DNA from: Pseudomonadota bacterium
GTDB taxonomy: Bacteria > Pseudomonadota > Alphaproteobacteria > Dongiales > Dongiaceae
Length of the DNA: 64,000 bases
NCBI GenBank assembly: GCA_021792365.1
Contig: JAJYUT010000002.1
Coordinates: forward strand, 888,313 to 952,312
Direction of reading: 5' to 3'
The position numbers were made by a program, and so were the translations under genes. Below the pieces are notes generated by a model. It was not told the DNA's origin, did no database searches, and saw only the letters and a list, made by a program, of their open reading frames with translations. The first letter of the stretch is position 1. Each line of letters begins with the position of its first letter. Below, piece after piece: positions 33,705-49,160 of the stretch.

Positions 33705-35171
33705 TCAGTCGCTCCGCATCACGCCCATATGCTTGCTCTTCGTGCTCTGGATGAAGAGGTTGCTGAGCGCGTCCTCGGTGTTCTGCGGGGTGAATTGCGG
33801 CTTGATGCCCTCGAACTTGCAGGAGGCCAGCACCTGCTCGACGATGAACTTGGGCTGGAAATAGGCGAGTGGCGCCTCCACCTGGCGGATCGAGTCGATG
33901 ACCTGCTGATAGATGCTCTCCGGCAGCTCCAGCCCCTGCTTGGCCGCCATCATCCTGAACACCTTCTTGTAGAGGTCCTCCGGCGGCTCCAGCGTCTCCA
34001 GCTTGTACGAGATGCGGCGCTGGAAGGCGGGATCCATCAGGTCGTTGGGATGCATGTTGGTGGAGAAGATCACGATCTCGTCGAACGGGATCTTCACGCT
34101 CTTGCCGCTGTGCAGGCTGAGATAGTCGACCTTGCTGTTGAGCGGGACGATCCAGCGGTTGAGGATCTGCTCGGGCTTGGCGAGCTGGCGGCCGAAGTCG
34201 TCGATCAGGAAGGTGCCGTTGAGCGCCTTCACATGCAGCGGCGCCTCGTAGAACTTGGCGATCGGGTTGAACTTGAGGTCGAGCATCTCGAGCGTGAGCT
34301 CGCCGCCGGTGATCACCATGGGCCGATAGCACGGCACCCAGCGCCGGTCGATCGGGCCGACGCGCACGCCGGTATTGGTGTCGACGCCGCTGCTCCCTTC
34401 CACCGAGCGGTGGACGGTCGGGTCGTAAACCTTCATGACCTCGCCGCCGATCTCCACGCAATAGGGCACGAACACGACGTTCTCGAAGATCTTGCCGATG
34501 ATCTCGGCGACCGTCGTCTTGCCGTTGCCGGCCGGTCCGTAGATCAGCATCGGGTTGCCCGAGTTGACCGCAGGGCCGAGGCGCATCAGGAACCGCTCCG
34601 GCATGACCAGCCCCTCGAAGGCCTGCTCCAGGCGCTGGCGCGAGATCACCTCGTTGGTGATGCGCTGGCGCAGGATGCGGTCCTGCCACGCCTCGAGCGG
34701 GACCGGTGCGGGACCGAAATACTGGCTGTTTTCAATGCACTCCTGCGTCCATTCACGGCCTGCCTTGGTCAGGGCGTAGCGCATTTCCGGGATCGCGCCG
34801 CCCCCGCCGACGGCAGAGCCGAGCGCCTCGACCAGCTTGCGGTCCTTGGCGTCCTGCAGGAGCTTGTTGATGATGCCCGCGGACAGCTTCAGGGCCTCGG
34901 CGAGCTGAGAGGGCAGCTCCATCCGTTCCAGGAACATGCCCTTCAGCATCAGTTGCAGCAGGAACCCGGGATCGATGCCGGTGTCCTCGACATTGCGCGG
35001 CGCGGGCGGGACCTCGCCGATGACCTGGGAGACCTGCTCCTGCGTGACGATGCCGAGGGCGACCAGGCTTTCGCCGATTCTGCCCCCATTGGCCTTCTGA
35101 TGGTCCAGGGCGCGAACGATGTCGTCGGGCGAAGCCAGGCCCTTCGCTACCAGGATATCCCCAAAGCTCAT
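33705..35171 (-). CDS. AAA-family ATPase with type II secretion E-like N-terminal domain
   Basis: A 488-residue protein. Residues about 1-55 (MSFGDILVAKGLASPDDIVR, then GRIGESLVALGIVTQEQVSQ) match the MshEN/GspE N-terminal plan, a domain that in other proteins binds c-di-GMP or a partner. The ATPase core follows with Walker A GPAGNGKTT (about residue 214) and a likely Walker B TFLIDDFGR, then FSTNMHPNDLMDPAFQRRI (sensor and arginine-finger region). No secretion or pilus genes are nearby. The family seems widespread in alphaproteobacteria, but I know no function for it. Confidence 0.85.
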   Translation of the reverse strand: MSFGDILVAKGLASPDDIVRALDHQKANGGRIGESLVALGIVTQEQVSQVIGEVPPAPRNVEDTGIDPGFLLQLMLKGMFLERMELPSQLAEALKLSAGIINKLLQDAKDRKLVEALGSAVGGGGAIPEMRYALTKAGREWTQECIENSQYFGPAPVPLEAWQDRILRQRITNEVISRQRLEQAFEGLVMPERFLMRLGPAVNSGNPMLIYGPAGNGKTTVAEIIGKIFENVVFVPYCVEIGGEVMKVYDPTVHRSVEGSSGVDTNTGVRVGPIDRRWVPCYRPMVITGGELTLEMLDLKFNPIAKFYEAPLHVKALNGTFLIDDFGRQLAKPEQILNRWIVPLNSKVDYLSLHSGKSVKIPFDEIVIFSTNMHPNDLMDPAFQRRISYKLETLEPPEDLYKKVFRMMAAKQGLELPESIYQQVIDSIRQVEAPLAYFQPKFIVEQVLASCKFEGIKPQFTPQNTEDALSNLFIQSTKSKHMGVMRSD

Positions 35172-36351: not shown

Positions 36352-37800
36352 GTGGAGTTCGAGGTAGTCTTGCACGTGCCCGACGGAGTGGCAGCCCCCC
36401 GGCGCCCGGATCAAATCGTGACGAGAAAGTTGCGGCTGCGCGACGTGTTGCGCGCCGATGTGCCGGCCATCTACGGAGCACTGGCCAGGGATCGAACGGG
36501 CGAGGACCGGCTGGTCCGGCTCACCTACCGGTTCGTGCACTGGCTGGAGCGGGGCGGCCGGCGAGCCGTCCAGGCCTATGTCGTCACGCCCCTGCCCCTG
36601 CTCTGGGCTTGGCGGCGCGGCGACGGCACCTGGGCCGGCCAGGTCCACAAGCACTATCTGCGCGCCCTGTGGCGCGAGCAGAGCGCGGCACGCAAGGCCG
36701 GGCTGCTGCTCGGGCTGCTGACATGGCTGCCGATCGTGCTTGTGATGATCGCGTGGTCCAGTTGGCTCAACGGCAGCATGGTCCGCCGGAAAACAGGCAA
36801 GAGCGTGACGCGCCAGGCGATCGAGCAACTCTGGTTCGCGGCACGTTATGGAATGCTGCCGCCCTGGTACTACATATTCGAGATGTTCGAGCCGAGGCAG
36901 CAAGCGAAGGCACCGCACTACATCCATCGCTACGAACTGAAGAACGGCCTGCTGCAGATCCTGCGGCGCAGCGTGCCGGCGACGCTCCGGTCCCCGACGC
37001 AGAACAAGATCGCGTTCCTCAGGCGGTGCAGCAAGGCCGGCATCCGCAGCGTGCCTAACTATGCGGTTGTGAAGGGCGGCCGGATTCAGTTGCGCGGAAT
37101 CGAGCGCAGGCAGTTCCTGTCGCAGGATCTGTTCGTAAAGCCGGCACGGGGACGCGGCGGCGAAGGCGCGGGCCTGTGGCAGCGCCGCCCCAAAGGCTAT
37201 CGCCTGCAGGACGGCGCGACGCTATCGCCGCAGAAGCTCCTGAAGCACCTTGGCAGGCTGTCGAGGACCAAGACCCTGTTGGTCCAGCCGCGCGTGCGCA
37301 ACCATTCCGCCATCGCCGATCTCAGCAACGGCGCCCTGTGCACCGCCCGCATCGTGACCATGCGCACCGAAAGCGGCGGCTACGAAGCGGTCTGCGCGCT
37401 GTTCCGCATGGCGGTCGGCGAGAATCGCCAGGTCGACAACTTCCACGCGGGCGGCATCGCCGCGCCGATCGACGTCTTGACGGGCAGGCTCGGCGCCGCC
37501 ACCGATTGGGGACTGCGCCCGCATCATGGCTGGAGGACGCATCACCCCGATACCGGCGGCCAGATCGAAGGCCGCATCCTGCCGCTATGGGCCGAGACGC
37601 GCGCATTGGCCGAGCGCGCCCACGGCGCGTTCGAGGATCGCCACGTCCTCGGCTGGGACATGGCGATCCTGGAGGACGGGCCCGCGATCGTCGAAGCCAA
37701 TGGCGGGCCGGATACGGACATGCATCAGCGCGTCAGCCGCGAACCGCTGGGCAACCAGCGGTTCGGAGAATTGATGGCCTTCCACCTGCGAAACCTCTAG
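36352..37800 (+). CDS. Sugar-transfer-associated ATP-grasp domain protein
   Basis: A 482-residue protein with a GTG start (VEFEVVLHVPD) at 36352. The N-terminal third contains a basic region and one probable membrane helix (KAGLLLGLLTWLPIVLVMIAW). The rest is an ATP-grasp fold of the sugar-transfer-associated type: LFVKPARGRGGEGAGLW for ATP binding, VQPRVRNHSAIADLS, and the metal-binding end GWDMAILEDGPAIVEANG. Such proteins ligate or modify glycan precursors in polysaccharide loci, but no glycosyltransferase is close here. The ankyrin gene follows by 9 bases. Confidence 0.82.
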   Translation: MEFEVVLHVPDGVAAPRRPDQIVTRKLRLRDVLRADVPAIYGALARDRTGEDRLVRLTYRFVHWLERGGRRAVQAYVVTPLPLLWAWRRGDGTWAGQVHKHYLRALWREQSAARKAGLLLGLLTWLPIVLVMIAWSSWLNGSMVRRKTGKSVTRQAIEQLWFAARYGMLPPWYYIFEMFEPRQQAKAPHYIHRYELKNGLLQILRRSVPATLRSPTQNKIAFLRRCSKAGIRSVPNYAVVKGGRIQLRGIERRQFLSQDLFVKPARGRGGEGAGLWQRRPKGYRLQDGATLSPQKLLKHLGRLSRTKTLLVQPRVRNHSAIADLSNGALCTARIVTMRTESGGYEAVCALFRMAVGENRQVDNFHAGGIAAPIDVLTGRLGAATDWGLRPHHGWRTHHPDTGGQIEGRILPLWAETRALAERAHGAFEDRHVLGWDMAILEDGPAIVEANGGPDTDMHQRVSREPLGNQRFGELMAFHLRNL

Positions 37801-37809
37801 AACGCAATC

Positions 37810-38763
37810 ATGAACTCCTTCGGAAACCGACTTGTGCGCTTCGCCGGCGGCGTCATGCGCCGCATCGTGACTTTCATCCTGCTGGTGGGCCCGTTCGCCA
37901 CGCCGGCGGAGGCCGAGACGGCGACGGAACGCATGTGGGCGGCGATCAACACGCAGGATGCGACGAGCCTGCGCAACGCGATCGAGCAGGGCGCCGATCC
38001 CAATGAGCCCAACGAGGAAGGGCGTGTCCCGCTCTATCGCGCGCTGGTGCTGCAGAACCAGTTGCTGATCGAGACGCTGCTGGGCCTCGGCGCCGATCCG
38101 AATGCCAAGGACCATCGCGGCGACCCGCTGCTGTTCACCGCCATGTCGGTCGGCAGTGCCCCCGCGAGCCTCACGCTCATCGGGGCCAAGGCCGACGCGA
38201 ACGCGAAGGATACGATCGGGATGTCGCCGCTCGCCTTCGCCATGACCCTGGAGCAGCCGCAATTGGTGGCCGCCCTGATCGAAGCCGGCGCGGATGTCAA
38301 TGCACCCAGCGCCGCGAGCGACGGCGGCGCGCCGGCCGCTCCCATCTTCCTCGCCCTCCGGTCGGGCAAGCTGGCGTTCGTGCGGCAGCTCATCGCGGCC
38401 GGTGCCGACGTGGATGCGCGGGACGACAAGGGCTCGACGCCGCTGCATCGCGCCGTCCTCGCGCAGCCGGCGGATTACATGACCGCGCTGGTTTCCGCCT
38501 TGCTGGATGCCGGCGCTGATCCCAACGCGATGCGGCCGGAAGGCGGCGCGCCGATCCACAATCTCGTCTTCGGCGCGGACAGCCTGCCGCCGGAAGCGGT
38601 GGCGCACACCGCCACCCTGCTGGCCCGGCATGGCGCGGACATGAACCTCGCCGCTGCAATCGACGGCGCGACCGCCCTCGACATCGCCCGCAGCAAGGGT
38701 GATCAGAGGTCGGCAGAATTGCTGGCGGCGATGGGTGGCGCCTGCCGGAACAGCTGCGACTGA
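37810..38763 (+). CDS. Exported ankyrin-repeat protein
   Basis: A 317-residue protein with a signal peptide (hydrophobic IVTFILLVGPFATPAEA, about 19-36) and six to seven ankyrin repeats. Recognisable units include DATSLRNAIEQGADPNEPNE, IETLLGLGADPNAKD, VAALIEAGADVNAPS, VRQLIAAGADVDARDDKG and VSALLDAGADPNAMRPEG. Periplasmic ankyrin proteins are protein-binding scaffolds; partner unknown. It starts 9 bases after the ATP-grasp gene and is likely co-transcribed. Confidence 0.87.
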   Translation: MNSFGNRLVRFAGGVMRRIVTFILLVGPFATPAEAETATERMWAAINTQDATSLRNAIEQGADPNEPNEEGRVPLYRALVLQNQLLIETLLGLGADPNAKDHRGDPLLFTAMSVGSAPASLTLIGAKADANAKDTIGMSPLAFAMTLEQPQLVAALIEAGADVNAPSAASDGGAPAAPIFLALRSGKLAFVRQLIAAGADVDARDDKGSTPLHRAVLAQPADYMTALVSALLDAGADPNAMRPEGGAPIHNLVFGADSLPPEAVAHTATLLARHGADMNLAAAIDGATALDIARSKGDQRSAELLAAMGGACRNSCD

Positions 38764-40862: not shown

Positions 40863-41975
40863 CTAGCGACCGGGAGGAGCGCTTTCGACCAACTTCAGGC
40901 AGGCGATGCGCGCGAGGTTGAGCAGGAACCGGGCGGCGAGCTTGGATTCCGACGCGATCAGTTCGTTCAAGGCGCGCTCGCGCAGCGCGATGACTTTCGT
41001 CTCGCCAACAGCGACGACATCGGCAGTGCGTTCGATGCCGAGCAGAAAGGCGATCTCCCCGAATACCGCGCCACGAGTGAGGAGCGCGATCGATTTGCCA
41101 TCGCGCATCACCTCGACTGCGCCATCCAGCACCACGAACACGCTGCGTTCAGCGAGATCCTGTCCAACGATGCGATCACCCGAAGCGCAGTTGATGACCG
41201 GGCTGCGCTCGATCAGCCGTGCGACCTCCTCTGCCTCCATACCGTGGAAGATCGAGATCTCATCATCTGCCAGCGTACTCTGCAGGCCGCTCCAATCGGG
41301 CGAGCCCACCGGGTGGCTCAGCAATTGCACAGGCGTGGACTTTGGCAGCAAGGCGAGGACCTTCGCCACGATCCCATCCGGCTCTCCCGGCCGCTTCGCT
41401 CGGAAGAGCGGGAGGAGGCGCGACTTGATGCGCTCCAGATGCTCGACATCGTCTATGACAAACACGAGCGGCGCCAGCATGCCGGCGATCGGATCGTTGC
41501 AGGTCTTGGCGTACGTGCGGAAGCCAAGCCGCAGGTAGTTGTTGATGAGATGGGGCCGGCAATCCAGGAACAGCAGCCGCACGTTGTTGTCGAGCGCGAA
41601 CGCGAACATTGTGTCCAGCATGCGCGCCGGCAGGTCAGAATCGCGATGGCTGGGCCGGGTCATGAAGCGACTGGCGATGATCGTCTCCTCGTCACCGACC
41701 AGGGCCACGAAGTCGGACAGCCGATAGATCCGCCGCTCCTCCTCCGTGAAGGCACATTCGGCACCCCAGTTGAACTGGAGCGTGCCGGCAAGGGCGCCGT
41801 CTTGCTCCGCCATCAGGAGCCGGGTCGGGCGGAGCATTGCCTCCGCAAGCCGCCGCCCGCGATGGTCAACCCCGGGAAAGACGTAGCCCATCTCCTCGAC
41901 GTAGATGTCGTAGCGCAGGCGATAGATAGCCTCGCGGTCCGCTTCGCTCTCGGCGAAGCGCAGGGTGGCGGTCAT
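40863..41975 (-). CDS. N-acyltransferase-like (GNAT/LuxI-fold) protein fused to a cyclic-nucleotide-binding domain
   Basis: A 370-residue two-domain protein. The N-terminal part (about 1-180) has the GNAT-related fold of N-acyl amino acid synthases and autoinducer synthases: RLRYDIYVEEMGYVFPG and ASRFMTRPSHRDSDLPARML are typical. A linker follows to about 235. The C-terminal part is a cNMP-binding domain with the phosphate-binding cassette AVFGEIAFLLGIERTADVVA. The acyl donor and acceptor are unknown. The fusion predicts acyl transfer controlled by cAMP, cGMP or a related ligand. Confidence 0.82.
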   Translation of the reverse strand: MTATLRFAESEADREAIYRLRYDIYVEEMGYVFPGVDHRGRRLAEAMLRPTRLLMAEQDGALAGTLQFNWGAECAFTEEERRIYRLSDFVALVGDEETIIASRFMTRPSHRDSDLPARMLDTMFAFALDNNVRLLFLDCRPHLINNYLRLGFRTYAKTCNDPIAGMLAPLVFVIDDVEHLERIKSRLLPLFRAKRPGEPDGIVAKVLALLPKSTPVQLLSHPVGSPDWSGLQSTLADDEISIFHGMEAEEVARLIERSPVINCASGDRIVGQDLAERSVFVVLDGAVEVMRDGKSIALLTRGAVFGEIAFLLGIERTADVVAVGETKVIALRERALNELIASESKLAARFLLNLARIACLKLVESAPPGR

Positions 41976-42129
41976 GTTGTGGCTATTCCCCCAAGTCAGG
42001 CCGGAGACCGGTCGTATCTCACCGGCACATCCTCCACAAGCGCGGTCTCGTCGTTTCGACGTCGCAAAATGGCGATTCCGAGCTGTTCCGGGGAGGTTCT
42101 ACGGTATTAAGCTATTGATCTATAAAGCG

Positions 42130-42230: not shown

Positions 42231-42707
42231 ATGTCGGTGAGAGACTGGGATGCGGAGACGGGGCGCGAGGTTGTCCGCGCCTTGAAGCACGTTGAGGGAG
42301 CGCTGCTCCCCATCCTGCACGCCATACAGGAAAAATTCGGATACGTGGATGCGGCGGCGGTGCCGATCATCGCGGATGAACTCAACCTCAGCCGCGCCGA
42401 GGTGCATGGCGTCATCAGCTTCTATCATGATTTCCGTAAGCACGCGCCCGGGAAGCACATCGTGAAGATCTGCCGCGCCGAGGCGTGCCAGGCGGTCGGC
42501 GGCAGGGATAGCGAAGCCCACGTGCAGGAGCGGCTGAACGCCGGCTTCCACGAAACCAGCGCCGACGGGCGCTATACTCTCGAGCCGGTCTATTGCCTCG
42601 GCAATTGCGCCTGCGGCCCCTCCGCGATGATCGACGGCAAGCTCTATGGCCGCGTCACGCCGAAGCGCTTCGATCAGCTTGTCGGCGCGCTGGAGGCCAA
42701 GCGATGA
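42231..42707 (+). CDS. fdsG: NAD-dependent formate dehydrogenase, gamma subunit
   Basis: A 158-residue NuoE-like subunit with a thioredoxin-like [2Fe-2S] domain. The cluster Cys are in ICRAEACQAVGG and YCLGNCACGPSAMIDG. It passes electrons within the soluble molybdenum formate dehydrogenase FdsGBA. It is the first gene of the operon, and its stop overlaps the fdsB ATG (ATGA), so translation is coupled. Length and fold match fdsG better than complex I NuoE. Confidence 0.94.
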   Translation: MSVRDWDAETGREVVRALKHVEGALLPILHAIQEKFGYVDAAAVPIIADELNLSRAEVHGVISFYHDFRKHAPGKHIVKICRAEACQAVGGRDSEAHVQERLNAGFHETSADGRYTLEPVYCLGNCACGPSAMIDGKLYGRVTPKRFDQLVGALEAKR

Positions 42708-44287
42708 CCGGGCCGATAACTGCGCCGATGATCACCGTCTACGTCCCGTGCGACGCAACGGCGGTTTCGCTCGGCGCGGATGAGGTGGCAAGCGCGGTCC
42801 AGGCGGCAGCCGACCGCGCCGGAACCCAGATCAAGATCATCCGCAACGGCTCGCGGGGTCTGTTCTGGCTGGAGCCGATGGTGGAAGTGGCGACGCCGCA
42901 GGGGCGCATCGCCTATGGCCCCGTCAGTGAAAGCGACGTGGCGGGCCTGTTCGCGGCCGGCTTCCTGCAAGGAGCTCAGCACGCGCTGCGCCTCGGCAAT
43001 CCCGAAGAAATCCCGTATCTCAAGAACCAGGAGCGGCTGACCTTCGCGCGCTGCGGCATCACCGATCCGCTGTCGATCGAGGACTACATCGCGCATGAGG
43101 GCTATCGCGGCCTCGCCAATGCGCTGAAGATGCAGCCGGCGGATGTCGTCACTGCGGTCACCGAGTCCGGATTGCGCGGCCGCGGGGGCGCGGGCTTTCC
43201 CACCGGCATCAAGTGGAAGACCGTGCTCGCCACGCCGGCGGATCAGAAATACATCGTGTGCAATGCCGACGAAGGTGACAGCGGCACCTTCGCCGACCGG
43301 ATGCTGATGGAAGGCGATCCCTTCCTGCTGATCGAAGGCATGACGATCGCCGGCCTCGCGGTCGGCGCCACCAAGGGCTTCGTCTATATCCGCAGCGAAT
43401 ATCCGATCGCGTTCGCGCAGATGCAGCGCGCGATCGACGTCGCCAGCTTCAAAGGCTATCTGGGCGACAACGTGCTGGGCAGCGGCAAAACGTTCCACCT
43501 GGAACTGAGGCTGGGCGCCGGCGCCTATATCTGCGGCGAGGAGACCTCGCTGCTCGACAGCCTGGAAGGCAAGCGCGGCATGGTACGCCCAAAGCCGCCG
43601 CTGCCGGCGATTTCCGGTCTGTTCGGCCAACCGACGGTGATCAACAACGTCCTGTCTCTCGCCGCCGTGCCGACGATCCTGGACAAGGGCGCGGCTTTCT
43701 ACAAGGATTACGGCATGGGCCGGTCGCGCGGCACGATGCCACTGCAACTGGCCGGGAACATCAAGCGCGGCGGGCTTGTTGAGAAGGCATTCGGCCTGAC
43801 CTTGCGTCAGGTGATCGAAGAATTCGGCGGCGGCACGGCGAGCGGCCGGCCGATCCGCGCAGTCCAGGTCGGCGGACCCCTGGGCGCCTATTTTCCGGCA
43901 AGCCTGCTGGATACGCCGATCGATTACGAGGCGATGGCGGCGCAAAAGGGCATGCTCGGTCACGGCGGCATCGTTGTGTTCGACGACAGCGTCGACATGG
44001 CGCAGCAGGCGCGGTTCGCCTTCGAGTTCTGCGCGACGGAATCGTGCGGCAAGTGCACGCCCTGCCGCATCGGCTCGACCCGCGGGGTCGAGGTCATCGA
44101 CCGCATCGTCGCGGGCCAGGAACGCGACAAGAATTTCATCGTGCTGGACGATCTGTGCGAGACGCTGCTCGACGGATCGCTGTGCGCGCTGGGCGGCTTG
44201 ACCCCCTTCCCCGTTCAGAGCGCGTTAAGGCATTTTCCCGAGGATTTTCACCGCGAACCGCGCAAGACCGCGCGCGCGGCGGAATAG
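42704..44287 (+). CDS. fdsB: NAD-dependent formate dehydrogenase, beta subunit (diaphorase)
   Basis: A 527-residue NuoF-like subunit that binds FMN and NAD and a [4Fe-4S] cluster. The first 110 residues are an extra thioredoxin-like domain fused in Fds-type proteins. Motifs are GLRGRGGAGFPTGIKW (NAD/FMN binding), ICGEETSLLDSLEGKRG and the cluster ESCGKCTPCRIG near residue 450. It reduces NAD with electrons from formate oxidation. The start at 42704 overlaps fdsG; the frame extends upstream but that part is inside fdsG. Confidence 0.95.
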   Translation: MTGPITAPMITVYVPCDATAVSLGADEVASAVQAAADRAGTQIKIIRNGSRGLFWLEPMVEVATPQGRIAYGPVSESDVAGLFAAGFLQGAQHALRLGNPEEIPYLKNQERLTFARCGITDPLSIEDYIAHEGYRGLANALKMQPADVVTAVTESGLRGRGGAGFPTGIKWKTVLATPADQKYIVCNADEGDSGTFADRMLMEGDPFLLIEGMTIAGLAVGATKGFVYIRSEYPIAFAQMQRAIDVASFKGYLGDNVLGSGKTFHLELRLGAGAYICGEETSLLDSLEGKRGMVRPKPPLPAISGLFGQPTVINNVLSLAAVPTILDKGAAFYKDYGMGRSRGTMPLQLAGNIKRGGLVEKAFGLTLRQVIEEFGGGTASGRPIRAVQVGGPLGAYFPASLLDTPIDYEAMAAQKGMLGHGGIVVFDDSVDMAQQARFAFEFCATESCGKCTPCRIGSTRGVEVIDRIVAGQERDKNFIVLDDLCETLLDGSLCALGGLTPFPVQSALRHFPEDFHREPRKTARAAE

Positions 44288-44302
44288 GTCAGGAGCTTGG
44301 CC

Positions 44303-47140
44303 ATGTTGATCAAGGAAACTGATTACGGCACCCCCGCCTCCAAGAGCGAAGCGATGGTGACCCTGGAGATCGACGGCGAGAACGTGACGGTTCCGGCCGG
44401 GACCTCGCTCATGCGCGCCGCCGCCTCGATCGGGACCAAGGTCCCGAAGCTGTGCGCCACCGACAGCCTCAACTCCTTCGGCTCCTGCCGCCTGTGCCTG
44501 GTGGAGATCGAGGGGCGCAGGGGCACGCCGGCCTCCTGCACCACGCCGGTCGAGCCAGGTATGAAGGTCCGCACCCAGACGCCGCGCCTGGCCAAGCTGC
44601 GCCGCGGGGTGATGGAGCTCTATATCTCCGATCATCCGCTGGACTGCCTGACCTGCGCCGCCAATGGCGATTGCGAGCTGCAGGACATGGCGGGCGAGGT
44701 CGGCCTGCGCGAGGTGCGCTACGGCTATGACGGCGCCAACCACCTGACGTCCGAGAAGGACACTTCGAACCCCTATTTCACCTTCGATCCGGCCAAGTGC
44801 ATCGTCTGCTCGCGCTGCGTGCGCGCGTGCGAGGAGGTACAGGGCACATTTGCGCTGACCATCGATGGCCGCGGCTTCGCCTCTGTCGTGTCGGCTGGCC
44901 AGAAGCAGGACTTCCTCGATTCCGAATGCGTGTCCTGCGGCGCCTGCGTGCAGGCCTGCCCGACCGCCACGCTGATGGAGAACAGCGTCATCGACAATGG
45001 CCAGCCGGAGCACAGCGTGCTCACGACCTGCGCCTATTGCGGCGTCGGCTGCTCCTTCAAGGCGGAGATGCGCGGCGAGCAGGTCGTGCGCATGATGCCC
45101 TACAAGGACGGCAAGGCGAATCATGGCCATTCCTGCGTGAAGGGCCGTTTCGCCTGGGGCTATGCGACCCACAAGGAGCGCATCACCAAGCCGATGATCC
45201 GCGCCAAGATCACCGATCCGTGGAAGGAAGTCAGCTGGGAAGAGGCGATCAACCACGCCGCCAGCGAGTTCAAGCGCATCCAGAAGAAATACGGCCGCGG
45301 CTCAGTCGGCGGCATCACCTCCTCCCGCTGCACCAATGAGGAAACCTATCTGGTGCAGAAGATGATCCGCGCCGCGTTCGGCAACAACAACGTCGATACC
45401 TGCGCGCGCGTCTGCCACTCGCCGACGGGCTATGGGCTGAAGACCACCTTCGGCACCTCCGCCGGCACGCAGGATTTCGACTCGGTCGAGGCGACCGACG
45501 TCATTATGGTGATCGGCGCCAACCCGACCGACGCCCATCCGGTATTCGCGAGCCGCATGAAGCGGCGCCTGCGCGAGGGCGCCAAGCTGATCGTGGTGGA
45601 TCCGCGGCGCATCGAGCTGGTGAAGACGGCCCACGTTGAGGCCGATTATCACCTGCAGCTGATGCCCGGCACCAACGTCGCGGTCATCAACGCGCTGGCG
45701 CACGTGATCGTGACCGAGGGCCTGGTGAACGAGCAATACGTGGCCGAAAGGTGCGAGCCGGAAGACTTCCGGCGCTGGCGGGATTTCGTGGCCCTCCCGG
45801 AGAATTCGCCGGAGGCGGCCGAGCAGTATACCAAGGTTCCGGCGGCGGAGGTGCGCGCTGCTGCGCGGCTCTACGCGACCGGCGGCAATGCCGCGATCTA
45901 TTACGGCCTCGGCGTCACCGAGCACAGCCAGGGCTCGACCATGGTCATGGGCATGGCGAACCTTGCCATGGCGACCGGCAATATCGGCCGCAACGGCGTC
46001 GGCGTAAATCCGCTGCGCGGCCAGAACAACGTGCAGGGCGCCTGCGACATGGGCTCCTTCCCGCACGAATTCACCGGCTACCGCCATGTCTCGGACGATA
46101 CGGTGCGCCAGTCGTTCGAGCAGGCCTGGGGCGTGACGCTCGACCCCGAGCCGGGCCTGCGCATTCCGAACATGCTGGACAGTGCCGTCGAAGGTTCGTT
46201 CAAGGGCCTCTACGTCCAGGGCGAGGATATCGCGCAATCCGATCCCAACACCCAGCACGTGACCTCGGGCCTGGAGGCCATGGAATGCGTGGTGGTGCAG
46301 GACATCTTCCTGAACGAGACGGCCAACTACGCCCATGTCTTCCTGCCCGGCTCGTCGTTCCTGGAGAAGGACGGCACTTTCACCAATGCCGAGCGTCGCA
46401 TCTCGCTGGTCAACAAGGCGATGCGGCCGATGGCCGGCTATGCCGATTGGGAAGTGACCATGATGCTGAGCAAGGCGCTCGGCTATCCCATGGACTACAA
46501 GCACCCCAGCGAGATCATGGACGAGATCGCGCGCCTGACCCCGACCTTCAAGGGCGTCAGCTTCGATCGCATCCGCGAGCTGGGCTCGGTCCAATGGCCG
46601 TGCAACGACGCGGCGCCCGAGGGCACCCCGATCATGCATCAGAAGGGCTTCGTCCGCGGCAAGGGCAAGTTCATGGTCACTGCCTTCGTGCCGACCGAGG
46701 AGCGCACGGGACCGCGCTTCCCGCTCATCCTCACGACGGGGCGCATCCTCTCGCAATACAATGTGGGCGCGCAGACCCGGCGCACCGAGAACGTCGCCTG
46801 GCATCCGGAGGACGTGCTGGAGATCCATCCGTTCGACGCGGAGTCGCGCGGCATCCGCGACGGCGACGTGGTCGCGCTGGCGAGCCGCGTGGGCGAGACG
46901 TCGCTCCATGCCAAGATCTCCGAGCGCATGCAGCCGGGCGTGGTCTACACCACCTTCCATCATGCGCTGACCGGCGCGAATGTCGTGACCACCGAGCATT
47001 CGGACTGGGCGACCAACTGCCCCGAATACAAGGTCACCGCCGTCCAGGTGCGGCTGTCGAACCAGAGGTCGGAATGGCAGCGTTCCTATGAGGCGCTGCG
47101 CGAGGCGACGCGCAAGGTTGCAGCCCCCGCGGCGGAATGA
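44303..47140 (+). CDS. fdsA: NAD-dependent formate dehydrogenase, alpha (molybdenum) subunit
   Basis: A 945-residue catalytic subunit that oxidises formate to CO2. The N-terminal [2Fe-2S] domain has SFGSCRLCLVEIEG. NuoG-like [4Fe-4S] clusters follow (CIVCSRCVRACEEV and CVSCGACVQACP). The bis-MGD molybdenum domain begins with the cluster CAYCGVGC. The molybdenum ligand is most likely Cys371 followed by His372 in DTCARVCHSPTG, so this is a cysteine and not a selenocysteine enzyme. AGGAG lies seven bases before the start at 44303. Confidence 0.96.
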   Translation: MLIKETDYGTPASKSEAMVTLEIDGENVTVPAGTSLMRAAASIGTKVPKLCATDSLNSFGSCRLCLVEIEGRRGTPASCTTPVEPGMKVRTQTPRLAKLRRGVMELYISDHPLDCLTCAANGDCELQDMAGEVGLREVRYGYDGANHLTSEKDTSNPYFTFDPAKCIVCSRCVRACEEVQGTFALTIDGRGFASVVSAGQKQDFLDSECVSCGACVQACPTATLMENSVIDNGQPEHSVLTTCAYCGVGCSFKAEMRGEQVVRMMPYKDGKANHGHSCVKGRFAWGYATHKERITKPMIRAKITDPWKEVSWEEAINHAASEFKRIQKKYGRGSVGGITSSRCTNEETYLVQKMIRAAFGNNNVDTCARVCHSPTGYGLKTTFGTSAGTQDFDSVEATDVIMVIGANPTDAHPVFASRMKRRLREGAKLIVVDPRRIELVKTAHVEADYHLQLMPGTNVAVINALAHVIVTEGLVNEQYVAERCEPEDFRRWRDFVALPENSPEAAEQYTKVPAAEVRAAARLYATGGNAAIYYGLGVTEHSQGSTMVMGMANLAMATGNIGRNGVGVNPLRGQNNVQGACDMGSFPHEFTGYRHVSDDTVRQSFEQAWGVTLDPEPGLRIPNMLDSAVEGSFKGLYVQGEDIAQSDPNTQHVTSGLEAMECVVVQDIFLNETANYAHVFLPGSSFLEKDGTFTNAERRISLVNKAMRPMAGYADWEVTMMLSKALGYPMDYKHPSEIMDEIARLTPTFKGVSFDRIRELGSVQWPCNDAAPEGTPIMHQKGFVRGKGKFMVTAFVPTEERTGPRFPLILTTGRILSQYNVGAQTRRTENVAWHPEDVLEIHPFDAESRGIRDGDVVALASRVGETSLHAKISERMQPGVVYTTFHHALTGANVVTTEHSDWATNCPEYKVTAVQVRLSNQRSEWQRSYEALREATRKVAAPAAE

Positions 47141-47150
47141 ACCGGCCAGG

Positions 47151-47993
47151 ATGGTTGGGGAGCCCAACAAGGCTGACGAGACGGACCAGAGCAGCGATCT
47201 GCCGGCGGTGACCCAGCCGGCGAGCGTGCGGCGCGTGGCGCGCGACGGCACGGTCATCGACCGCATCGACGTGCTGGCGGAGGAAACGCCGGTTGCCTTG
47301 GTCTACAACGGAATCAGCCACGCCGTCATGATGGCGAGCCCAGCCGATTTCGAGGATTTCGCGCTGGGCTTCTCCGTGAGCGAGGGCATCGCCGACAAAG
47401 ACGACGTGGGCGAGATCGAGGCGGTCGCCGTCGATGCCGGGATCGAGGTGCGGATCGAGCTGTCCTCCCGCGCCTTCTGGCGGTTGAAGGAGCGCCGGCG
47501 CACCCTCGCCGGGCGCACGGGCTGCGGGCTGTGCGGGGTCGACAGCCTGGAGCAGACCGTGCGCGTGATGGAGCCGGTCACCGCGGATATCAGGGTCTCG
47601 CTCGACGCCATTCACCGCGCGCTGGACAACCTGCCGGAGGCGCAGACGCATAACCGCGCCACCCGCTCCATGCACGCTGCCGCGTTTGCAACGCAGCAGG
47701 GCGAGCTGAGGCTGGTGCGCGAGGATGTCGGGCGCCACAACGCGCTCGACAAGCTGATCGGGGCGATGCTGCGGGCCGGGATCGAACCGGCCTCCGGAGT
47801 CTGCCTCATCACCAGCCGCTGCTCCTACGAGATGGTGCAGAAAGCGGTGGTGACAGGCTTCCCGATCCTCGTCGCCGTATCTGCGCCGACCCTGATGGCA
47901 CGGCGCTTGGCCGAGGCGCACAATCTTACGCTGGTGGCGCTGGCGCGGCATGACAGCGCTGTGCTTGTCAGCCATCCCGAACGCGTATACTGA
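47151..47993 (+). CDS. fdhD: Formate dehydrogenase accessory sulfurtransferase FdhD
   Basis: A 280-residue protein needed to sulfurate the bis-MGD cofactor of formate dehydrogenase. The conserved Cys pair is in TGCGLCGVDSLE, and TRSMHAAAF, REDVGRHNALDKLIG and SRCSYEMVQKAV are typical of the family. It starts 10 bases after fdsA. The AGG just before the ATG at 47151 is too close to be a good RBS, so translation may be coupled to fdsA. Confidence 0.95.
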   Translation: MVGEPNKADETDQSSDLPAVTQPASVRRVARDGTVIDRIDVLAEETPVALVYNGISHAVMMASPADFEDFALGFSVSEGIADKDDVGEIEAVAVDAGIEVRIELSSRAFWRLKERRRTLAGRTGCGLCGVDSLEQTVRVMEPVTADIRVSLDAIHRALDNLPEAQTHNRATRSMHAAAFATQQGELRLVREDVGRHNALDKLIGAMLRAGIEPASGVCLITSRCSYEMVQKAVVTGFPILVAVSAPTLMARRLAEAHNLTLVALARHDSAVLVSHPERVY

Positions 47994-48021
47994 AATCCGA
48001 TCCGATGAAGAGGGCGAAACC

Positions 48022-48258
48022 GTGACGACCCAGCGGCTGGTTCATATGGCCAATCAGGTGGCAGCCTTTTTTGCCTCCTATCCCGAGGCCGAGGCGATCG
48101 AGGGCACGGCCAACCATCTCAAGAGTTTCTGGGATCCGCGCATGCGGCGCGAGATCGAGGCGCACCTGGCAGAGAAAGCCGGCGCCGGCCTTTCGCACGT
48201 GGCGCTCGAAGCCGTGAAGCGCATCGCCCAGAAAGACGCCGCCAAGAAGTCGGCCTGA
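48022..48258 (+). CDS. fdsD: Formate dehydrogenase, delta subunit
   Basis: A 78-residue FdsD-like protein, VTTQRLVHMANQVAAFFAS onward, with the family pattern HLKSFWDPRMRREIEAHL. It helps activate or stabilise Fds enzymes. The GTG at 48022 is chosen from homology and the GAGGG eight bases before it; the longer frame is inside fdhD. It ends 5 bases before the LysR gene. Confidence 0.9.
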   Translation: MTTQRLVHMANQVAAFFASYPEAEAIEGTANHLKSFWDPRMRREIEAHLAEKAGAGLSHVALEAVKRIAQKDAAKKSA

Positions 48259-48263
48259 CCTCC

Positions 48264-49160
48264 TTGCTCCTGAGGCAACTCTCCTATCTGGTCGCGCTCG
48301 CCAAGGAGCGCCATTTCGCCCGCGCCGCCGCCTCCTGCAACATCACCCAGCCGGCCTTGTCGGCAGCCATCCGCCATCTCGAGGAAGAGCTGGGCGTCAT
48401 GCTGGTCGAGCGCGACAAGCGCTTCAACGGCTTCACGCCGGAGGGACAGGAGGTGCTGCTATGGGCGCGGCGGATGCTGGCGGACGAGGAATCCCTGCGC
48501 CAGGGCATCCAGAATGCCCAGCGTTCCCTGACCGGCAATCTGAAGCTCGGCGTCATCCCTTCCGCCCTGCCCTTGGTGCCCGCCGTGACCGACCCGCTGC
48601 ATGATCGCCATCCGCAGGTGAAGGTGACGGTCTGGTCCACAAGCTCGATAGAGATCCAGCAGGGATTGGACCAGTTCGAGCTCGATGCCGGAATAACCTA
48701 CATCGAAAGCGAGCCGCTGCACGGCGTGCTCACGCGTGAGCTCTATGTCGAGCGCTATATCCTGCTGACGCCGGAGCACGGGCCGCTGGCCGGCCGCATC
48801 AGCGCGACCTGGCGCGAGGCGGCGGACCTGCCGCTCTGCCTCCTGACCCCCAACATGCAGAACCGGCGCATCCTCGACGGGGTGTTCAAATCGCTGGATT
48901 GCAGCCCGCGCCCGCAGCTCGAGACCAACTCGGTGGTCAATCTGTGTGCCCATGTGCGCTCGGGGCGACTCTCCAGCATAGTGCCCGAAACCCTGATCCA
49001 GGTGCTCGGCATGCCGTCGGGCGCGGTCGCGCTGGACCTGGTGGAGCCGGAGATCTCCCGCAAGGTCGGCCTCATCGTCCCCAACCGAGAGCCGCTGGCG
49101 CCGATCACCCTCGCGCTGTTCTCGCTGCAATTCCCGGCACTGAGCGCGGATGTGGGGTGA
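48264..49160 (+). CDS. LysR family transcriptional regulator, formate dehydrogenase operon
   Basis: A 298-residue LysR regulator with an N-terminal winged helix-turn-helix (LRQLSYLVALAKERHFARAA and ITQPALSAAIRHLEEELG) and a C-terminal effector-binding domain. It begins with TTG at 48264; the family usually starts MLLRQL, which fits LLLRQL here. RBS is weak, so coupling to fdsD is likely. LysR genes at the ends of fds operons control the operon, probably sensing formate. Confidence 0.92.
   Translation: MLLRQLSYLVALAKERHFARAAASCNITQPALSAAIRHLEEELGVMLVERDKRFNGFTPEGQEVLLWARRMLADEESLRQGIQNAQRSLTGNLKLGVIPSALPLVPAVTDPLHDRHPQVKVTVWSTSSIEIQQGLDQFELDAGITYIESEPLHGVLTRELYVERYILLTPEHGPLAGRISATWREAADLPLCLLTPNMQNRRILDGVFKSLDCSPRPQLETNSVVNLCAHVRSGRLSSIVPETLIQVLGMPSGAVALDLVEPEISRKVGLIVPNREPLAPITLALFSLQFPALSADVG

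Follow-up and report, generated by a model that had tools for sequence, protein, structure and literature searches.

The gene at positions 40863-41975 on the reverse strand of the window (the whole 64,000-nucleotide stretch of DNA analysed here) joins an N-terminal FeeM-like acyltransferase domain of the GNAT fold to a C-terminal cyclic-nucleotide-binding (cNMP) domain. We lean, if only slightly, towards reading its product as a cAMP- or cGMP-gated soluble N-acyltransferase with an altered active site. The host is a Dongia-like alphaproteobacterium, a soil bacterium with a genome of 5.4 Mb, in which we counted one FeeM-family match, eight cNMP-domain matches and 26 class III cyclase matches.

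The fusion gene encodes 370 amino acids, its coordinates including the stop codon, and was delineated from its open reading frame, Pfam matches, orthologues and an AlphaFold model. A GGGGGAA stretch (41986-41992, reverse strand), read from the sequence as a likely ribosome-binding site, lies 10 nt before the ATG. The FeeM-like GNAT domain comprises residues 1-185 (41421-41975, reverse strand). It is followed by a helical linker of residues 186-237 (41265-41420, reverse strand; model helices 188-194, 202-209 and 226-236) and by the cNMP domain with its C-terminal helices, residues 238-370 (40866-41264, reverse strand). Both domains exceed their Pfam cut-offs: FeeM (PF21926) matches residues 16-159 with an E value of 3.7e-7 and 30.5 bits against a cut-off of 27, while cNMP_binding (PF00027) matches residues 263-342 with 6.6e-14 and 52.1 bits against 27.5. 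The fusion of a GNAT to a cNMP domain, proposed for this gene in an earlier note, is thus borne out. In an NCBIfam scan of the 370-residue protein, no model reached its cut-off. Orthologues in three congeneric genomes share 87, 83 and 75% identity, and the closest named relative among the best 80 of 237 relatives is that of Dongia deserti (locus L049, 88%). Across the three pairs formed by the window protein, L049 and L050 (L051 was left out), dN/dS is 0.10-0.14 for the whole protein and 0.13-0.18 for the GNAT part. The linker evolves fastest (0.15-0.22), and the cNMP part, with 0.05-0.09, is the most constrained in the Dongia clade. The 370-residue open reading frame is a real gene under purifying constraint.

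The AlphaFold model, computed with 73 aligned family members as input, has a pLDDT of 90.4 and a pTM of 0.85, the pLDDT dropping to about 70 around residues 221-240 in the linker region. In VIA-align comparisons, the best GNAT-side match in the PDB is FeeM (2g0b; Z 17.9, rmsd 2.6, 12% identity), aligned over 169 of 184 residues with model residues 1-186, in agreement with the LuxI/FeeM-like fold that the earlier note had suggested. RpaI (Z 16.7), 1xeb (16.6), LasI (16.5), 3efa (16.5), SACOL1063 (16.4) and TofI (16.4) follow; RpaI, LasI and TofI are acyl-homoserine-lactone (AHL) synthases, which span 15.8-16.7 in all, and the other three are CoA GNATs. As FeeM leads by only about one Z unit, with the others within 1.2-2, the fold does no more than favour FeeM among the GNATs. 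On the cNMP side, the bacterial cNMP domain 3gyd ranks first (Z 18.0), and cAMP-bound GlxR (16.8), cGMP-bound HCN2 (16.3) and cUMP-bound PycTIR (16.3) are also matched. In Foldseek, cNMP domains make up most of the best 50 matches listed; BjaI comes last among them, at rank 50, and FeeM is not in this listing. When a sequence profile of the GNAT part was compared with PDB sequences, the CoA acetyltransferase SACOL1063 scored best (E 8e-6), then the CoA-dependent AHL synthase BjaI (2.6e-5) and TofI (5.2e-4); FeeM does not appear among the 40 sequences listed, which extend to E 5. In hhalign, the same profile scores higher against an OlsB-like set (98.9%, score 115.8) than against a LuxI-like one (97.4%, 77.3), both sets having been chosen and named by us, the OlsB-like one from motifs.

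Relatives were collected by searching genome contigs with an 11-member profile, which gave 427 pattern matches; 237 of these encode a relative, and the best 80 were kept. Near-full-length frames occur in 74 of the 80 loci and amount to 76 proteins (two each in L085 and L117), the frames of L069 and L088 are interrupted, and L124, L125, L126 and L128 share the cNMP part or a short match alone. Including the window protein, this yielded 77 near-full-length proteins, or 63 after those at least 80% identical were dropped. Among the 73 of the 77 that were scanned, cNMP_binding is matched in all 73, FeeM in 61 at E <= 1e-3, and the acyltransferase family PF13444 in 47. The genomes are labelled Pseudomonadota, Actinomycetota, Chloroflexota, Myxococcota, Verrucomicrobiota, Cyanobacteriota, Spirochaetota, Bacteroidota, Bacillota and others; because most relatives come from metagenome bins, single labels may be wrong. 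The GNAT-cNMP fusion is a rare family that extends across many phyla. One bin labelled Akkermansia muciniphila (L052) holds a 48% relative that falls inside the Dongia-type clade and has the same lost residues; mislabelling is the probable cause, or else the gene was transferred. Tandem pairs of the fusion gene were observed at the alphaproteobacterial loci L085, L091 and L117.

Thirteen other genomes of the same taxonomic family gave no two-domain match among the matches listed. A phylum-wide profile search of 398 genomes returned the window protein as its sole two-domain match, nearly all others listed being cNMP domains of other proteins; as at most four candidates per genome were scored, it says little on how frequent the fusion is. 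Two pattern matches came from a scan of viral contigs against the window protein; no relative is encoded by either. A class-wide FeeM search of 190 genomes missed the window's own gene, which a single-genome search finds at E 2.1e-7, so its negatives were set aside and it served only as a source of stand-alone relatives. At 28 such stand-alone FeeM loci, the family model detects no cNMP domain, although some of the frames are plainly not the FeeM frame, and we give this result no weight.

The acyltransferase half combines well-kept family residues with conspicuous replacements. Among the 63 non-redundant members, the family is marked by R21 (62/63), E28 (59), D37 (56), D48 (58), R67 (56), R103 (45), R111 (58), C139 (58), P141 (62) and Y147 (57). 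The window protein retains R21, Y25, E28, D37, R103, R111, C139, P141 and Y147. In its clade (the window protein and L049-L052), the family aspartate at residue 48 (41832-41834, reverse strand) is Leu, and the family arginine at residue 67 (41775-41777, reverse strand) is Gln. Residue 100 (41676-41678, reverse strand) is Ile at the β-strand 4 position of the type I active-site Glu, where the LuxI-like and OlsB-like profiles align Glu. This column was placed through those two profiles and not through FeeM's own sequence, so that its equivalence to FeeM Glu95 is presumptive. The available text of PMC4897644 describes the strand-4 Glu as the proposed active-site residue of FeeM-type synthases (Glu95 in FeeM, Glu103 in Nas354) and reports that its removal from Nas354 abolished the phenotype. 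Glu occupies position 100 in 2 of the 63 members and position 102, in a GER motif, in 20; the remaining 41, the window protein included, have it at neither, and its absence is therefore common in the family. The window protein is thus FeeM-like by family and fold, not by the strand-4 Glu. The alteration points to a different acceptor, donor or mechanism.

The joint absence of Glu100/102, Asp48 and Arg67 in the Dongia clade, together with the stronger constraint on the cNMP part than on the GNAT part, would also fit a protein whose GNAT domain is weak or dead and which acts as a cyclic-nucleotide sensor binding a partner or a lipid. We regard this as unlikely, since the dN/dS given above shows purifying selection to act on the GNAT part as well, nine of the conserved positions from R21 to Y147 are kept, and the Glu is missing from most of the family.

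Several characterised acyltransferases can be set beside the window protein. FeeM is the Pfam family found over its cut-off and the best GNAT-side fold, but it is a single domain with no regulatory part, and its Glu95 is not kept in the window protein; a plain FeeM-type synthase was rejected on the missing strand-4 Glu. The N-acyl-tyrosine synthases Nas343 and Nas354 share with the window protein the order of an FeeM-like N-terminal domain and a C-terminal second-messenger domain, a two-domain form that the available text of PMC4897644 called new at its time. In these enzymes, however, the second domain is PilZ, proposed to bind c-di-GMP, and the essential Glu103 is kept. OlsB-type N-acyltransferases, which belong to PF13444 and make ornithine and other aminolipids, resemble the family through its PF13444 matches and the hhalign comparison, the OlsB-like set being the closest profile to the GNAT part. 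They differ in that the OlsB-like Glu is absent from the window protein and that no cNMP domain is reported for them in the available text of PMC11631085. No olsA-like partner gene lies beside the window gene, and OlsB was rejected as an identity because the NCBIfam OlsB models stay below their cut-offs, one scoring 25.6 bits on residues 4-41 (cut-off 350) and the other 11.2 bits (cut-off 320).

A further system unites the two domains under cAMP control. According to the available text on it, mycobacterial Pat (MSMEG_5458, Rv0998) is a cAMP-regulated protein acetyltransferase that transfers acetyl groups from acetyl-CoA onto protein lysines, and its cNMP domain precedes the GNAT domain. That the window protein is a cyclic-nucleotide-regulated lysine acetyltransferase of this kind, with acetyl-CoA as donor and a protein as acceptor, appears quite unlikely. 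Beyond the precedent itself, the reading draws on the CoA acetyltransferase that ranks first when the GNAT profile is compared with PDB sequences. It also draws on Tyr147, which we take to sit at the general-acid tyrosine site of CoA-dependent GNATs. Against it, the domain order is reversed, and the acetyl-CoA pyrophosphate loop RxxGxG/A is absent from all 63 members, the window protein reading R-D-S-D-L-P. In addition, the Pfam family over its cut-off is FeeM and not a general acetyltransferase, and the NCBIfam Pat model (NF058543) matches the cNMP part alone and, with 32.1 bits, stays far below its cut-off of 460. Pat was rejected as an identity on the model score and the missing loop.

The nucleotide-binding half is conserved at the positions expected of a ligand-binding cNMP domain. 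The phosphate-binding cassette GAVFGEIAFLLGIERTADVVA, delimited by conservation (residues 302-322; 41010-41072, reverse strand), includes E307 and R316, and in the window protein it is intact as FGEIAFLLGIERTADV with G306, E307 and R316, as the earlier note had described it. Taken with the PF00027 match, these residues predict the ligand-binding subtype. G306 is present in all 63 non-redundant members, and E307 and R316 in 57 each. The conservation of the nucleotide-contacting Arg in homologues therefore holds, with losses confined to five Firmicutes proteins (L105, L108, L110, L119 and L121) and the outlier L122. L122 combines its degenerate cassette with a receiver domain fused in front, in a genome with 12 cyclase matches. 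In a sample of 33 genomes (34 handles, two of them in one genome), class III cyclase matches occur in all 28 genomes whose member has an intact cassette, and none was found in the four Firmicutes genomes whose member lost E307 and R316. As the cassette-less Firmicutes proteins form one clade (support 100/99), this pattern counts as one event and not as a statistical test.

Ligand-free cNMP folds are common, FNR-like and EAG-type domains are among the fold matches, and E307 and R316 were lost in the Firmicutes members and L122. The window's cNMP domain could accordingly be a structural or dimerising module that no longer senses a cyclic nucleotide. We consider this decidedly unlikely, given the full cassette, the low dN/dS of the cNMP part and the many cyclases in the window's genome.

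In some relatives, the fusion gene lies close to genes for nucleotide cyclases. A cyclase profile run over 75 neighbourhoods (1.15 Mb) identified 13 cyclase open reading frames. By plain count, 7 of the 75 neighbourhoods have a class III cyclase adjacent to the fusion gene or third in the same-strand run, and eight of the 13 frames, from these seven loci, lie in or beside the fusion gene's own run. The cyclase follows the fusion gene by 3 nt in L067, 16 nt in L072 and 18 nt in L074. L064 has one cyclase 20 nt upstream and, on the opposite strand, a second 98 nt downstream. In L061, L062 and L065, the order is acyltransferase, PAS hybrid histidine kinase (identified by Pfam on L061) and receiver-cyclase. 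Pfam supports the cyclase in L072 and L064 and the receiver with cyclase in L061, L062 and L065; the L067 cyclase is barely over the Pfam cut-off (23.1 against 21.9 bits). The remaining five cyclase frames, one in each of five further loci, are more distant, at 1.8-5.2 kb. Five of the seven cyclase-linked loci are in the tree, and all five fall within the GER clade of 20 members. That clade forms a group with the window's clade and L116 (96/99; midpoint root, inner order open). The cyclase link was thus observed in a single clade, and no cyclase lies beside the window gene.

Other partners recur in particular lineages. In L078, L080, L083 and L084, a fused SAM methyltransferase follows the cNMP domain (by Pfam on L083 and L084), and in L082, L087, L104 and L107 a SAM methyltransferase gene adjoins the fusion gene (by Pfam on L087 and L107). 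An iron-containing heme-oxygenase-like protein is encoded directly upstream in six loci (Pfam on L092). Among the Firmicutes, five loci encode a PAS histidine kinase upstream, and four have a radical SAM/B12 protein (Pfam on L105). These recurrent partners suggest that in some lineages the acylated product is modified further. About 35 neighbours, chosen by us as adjacent or recurrent, were scanned; they also include a class II ribonucleotide reductase, transketolase, Rieske oxygenase, aldo-keto reductase, arylsulfotransferase and MotA/ExbB, among others. A product read from the relatives' neighbours was rejected, as these agree on no single pathway. In the Leptospiraceae loci L097 and L100, the fusion gene lies between two conserved small genes, those of L100 (138 and 240 amino acids) having no Pfam match.

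Around the window gene, a 2Fe-2S thioredoxin-like gene of the formate-dehydrogenase type is divergent in all four Dongia-like loci, at 178-256 nt. It is constant yet uninformative on the product, and deducing the product from the window's own neighbours was likewise rejected. In the window, positions 42231-49160 (forward strand) hold an apparent NAD-dependent formate dehydrogenase operon, divergent from the fusion gene; its 2Fe-2S subunit was assigned by Pfam, and the other subunits, an FdhD-like gene and a LysR regulator by eye only. At L060 (180-2270, reverse strand), in an Aestuariivirgaceae bin, a molybdopterin oxidoreductase (Pfam) is divergent from the acyltransferase at about 1.5 kb; it clusters with the formate dehydrogenase subunit of the window, and the arrangement may be chance. 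Elsewhere in the window, we observed a sugar-transfer-associated ATP-grasp protein (36352-37797, forward strand) followed by an ankyrin-repeat protein (37810-38760, forward strand), and an AAA ATPase-like protein (33708-35171, reverse strand) with a weak MarR-like match and no match over cut-off.

An AHL-type autoinducer synthase under second-messenger control is very improbable: the GNAT profile recovers BjaI and TofI by sequence and AHL synthase folds lie close in Z, but the conserved Glu of the LuxI-type ExxR motif, Glu97 in LuxI-type numbering, is Ile100 in the window protein and Glu in just 2 of 63 members, on which ground this identity was rejected; Trp is not one of the seven residues found most often at the position that we take, within the family alignment, to be LuxI Trp34; and no LuxR-type gene is among the neighbours scanned.

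For the gated acyltransferase that we favour, NasP offers a functional parallel. NasP reportedly also carries a cNMP domain. It is an N-acyl-phenylalanine synthase (ABB76600) from an uncultured beta-proteobacterium, described as directly activated by cAMP in the available text of PMC4897644, which cites Clardy and Brady (2007, J Bacteriol 189:6487), and as using phenylalanine as acceptor in that of PMC5643525. It parallels the cyclic-nucleotide-gated N-acyltransferase proposed here, a likeness drawn from its description and not from its sequence. Literature searches on the paired domain names yielded no paper, and wider ones no GNAT-first cNMP fusion among the titles listed and the text available. 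NasP surfaced through a citation, so we do not take this to mean that such a fusion is unpublished.

We propose that the FeeM-like GNAT domain would transfer an acyl group from an acyl thioester, either acyl-ACP or acyl-CoA, to an amine, for example an amino acid. The ligand of the cNMP domain would be a cyclic mononucleotide; the cassette, the fold matches and the cyclase-linked relatives point to cAMP or cGMP as the likeliest. Binding may shift the hinge helices against the linker and thereby switch the acyltransferase, as reported for NasP and mycobacterial Pat in the available accounts. In relatives with the kinase and receiver-cyclase genes, one gene run could lead from a signal through a phosphorelay and a cyclic nucleotide to an acylated product. 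In the Dongia-like host, the gene stands alone, and the messenger could come from the cyclase-domain proteins encoded elsewhere in the genome. Counted in favour of this gated acyltransferase were both domains and their recurrence in the family, the model, the FeeM fold, the missing acetyl-CoA loop, the kept R316 and E307, the constraint on the cNMP part, the cyclases and the NasP precedent; counted against it were the losses of Glu, Asp48 and Arg67, the absence of FeeM from the sequence-profile and Foldseek listings, the one-clade cyclase link with no cyclase beside the window gene, and L122. Acyl transfer under second-messenger control, as first proposed, is strengthened in its regulatory part by NasP and by the cyclases in the same run of some relatives. 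The specific N-acyl-amino-acid chemistry suggested with it gains no support, as the catalytic Glu, Asp48 and Arg67 are replaced and the neighbours reveal no donor or acceptor.

A wider reading is tentative, and we hold it rather doubtful. The family may be a widespread, hitherto undescribed class of cyclic-nucleotide-gated acyltransferases with a remade active site, serving as the output of a one-operon kinase and receiver-cyclase relay, with a product sometimes methylated by the fused or adjacent methyltransferase. The Dongia branch would then be a stand-alone effector with three conserved active-site residues exchanged and a product other than the known N-acyl amino acids.

Direct cyclic-nucleotide gating of an acyl-amine-forming enzyme was already reported for NasP, in the sources as available. 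The present analysis adds a picture of how far the family extends, of cyclases linked to it in operons, of its fusions to methyltransferase and receiver domains, of a lineage without the cassette and, in the window's clade, of an unusual active site. Members with the cassette lost (Firmicutes), with the Glu shifted or absent, or with a fused methyltransferase or receiver provide natural variants for structure-function work. If the family works like NasP, such control would be widespread over many phyla, with the messenger made from the same operon in some lineages. If this is true, the purpose of bacterial N-acyl amines, an old question, would become testable through one operon.
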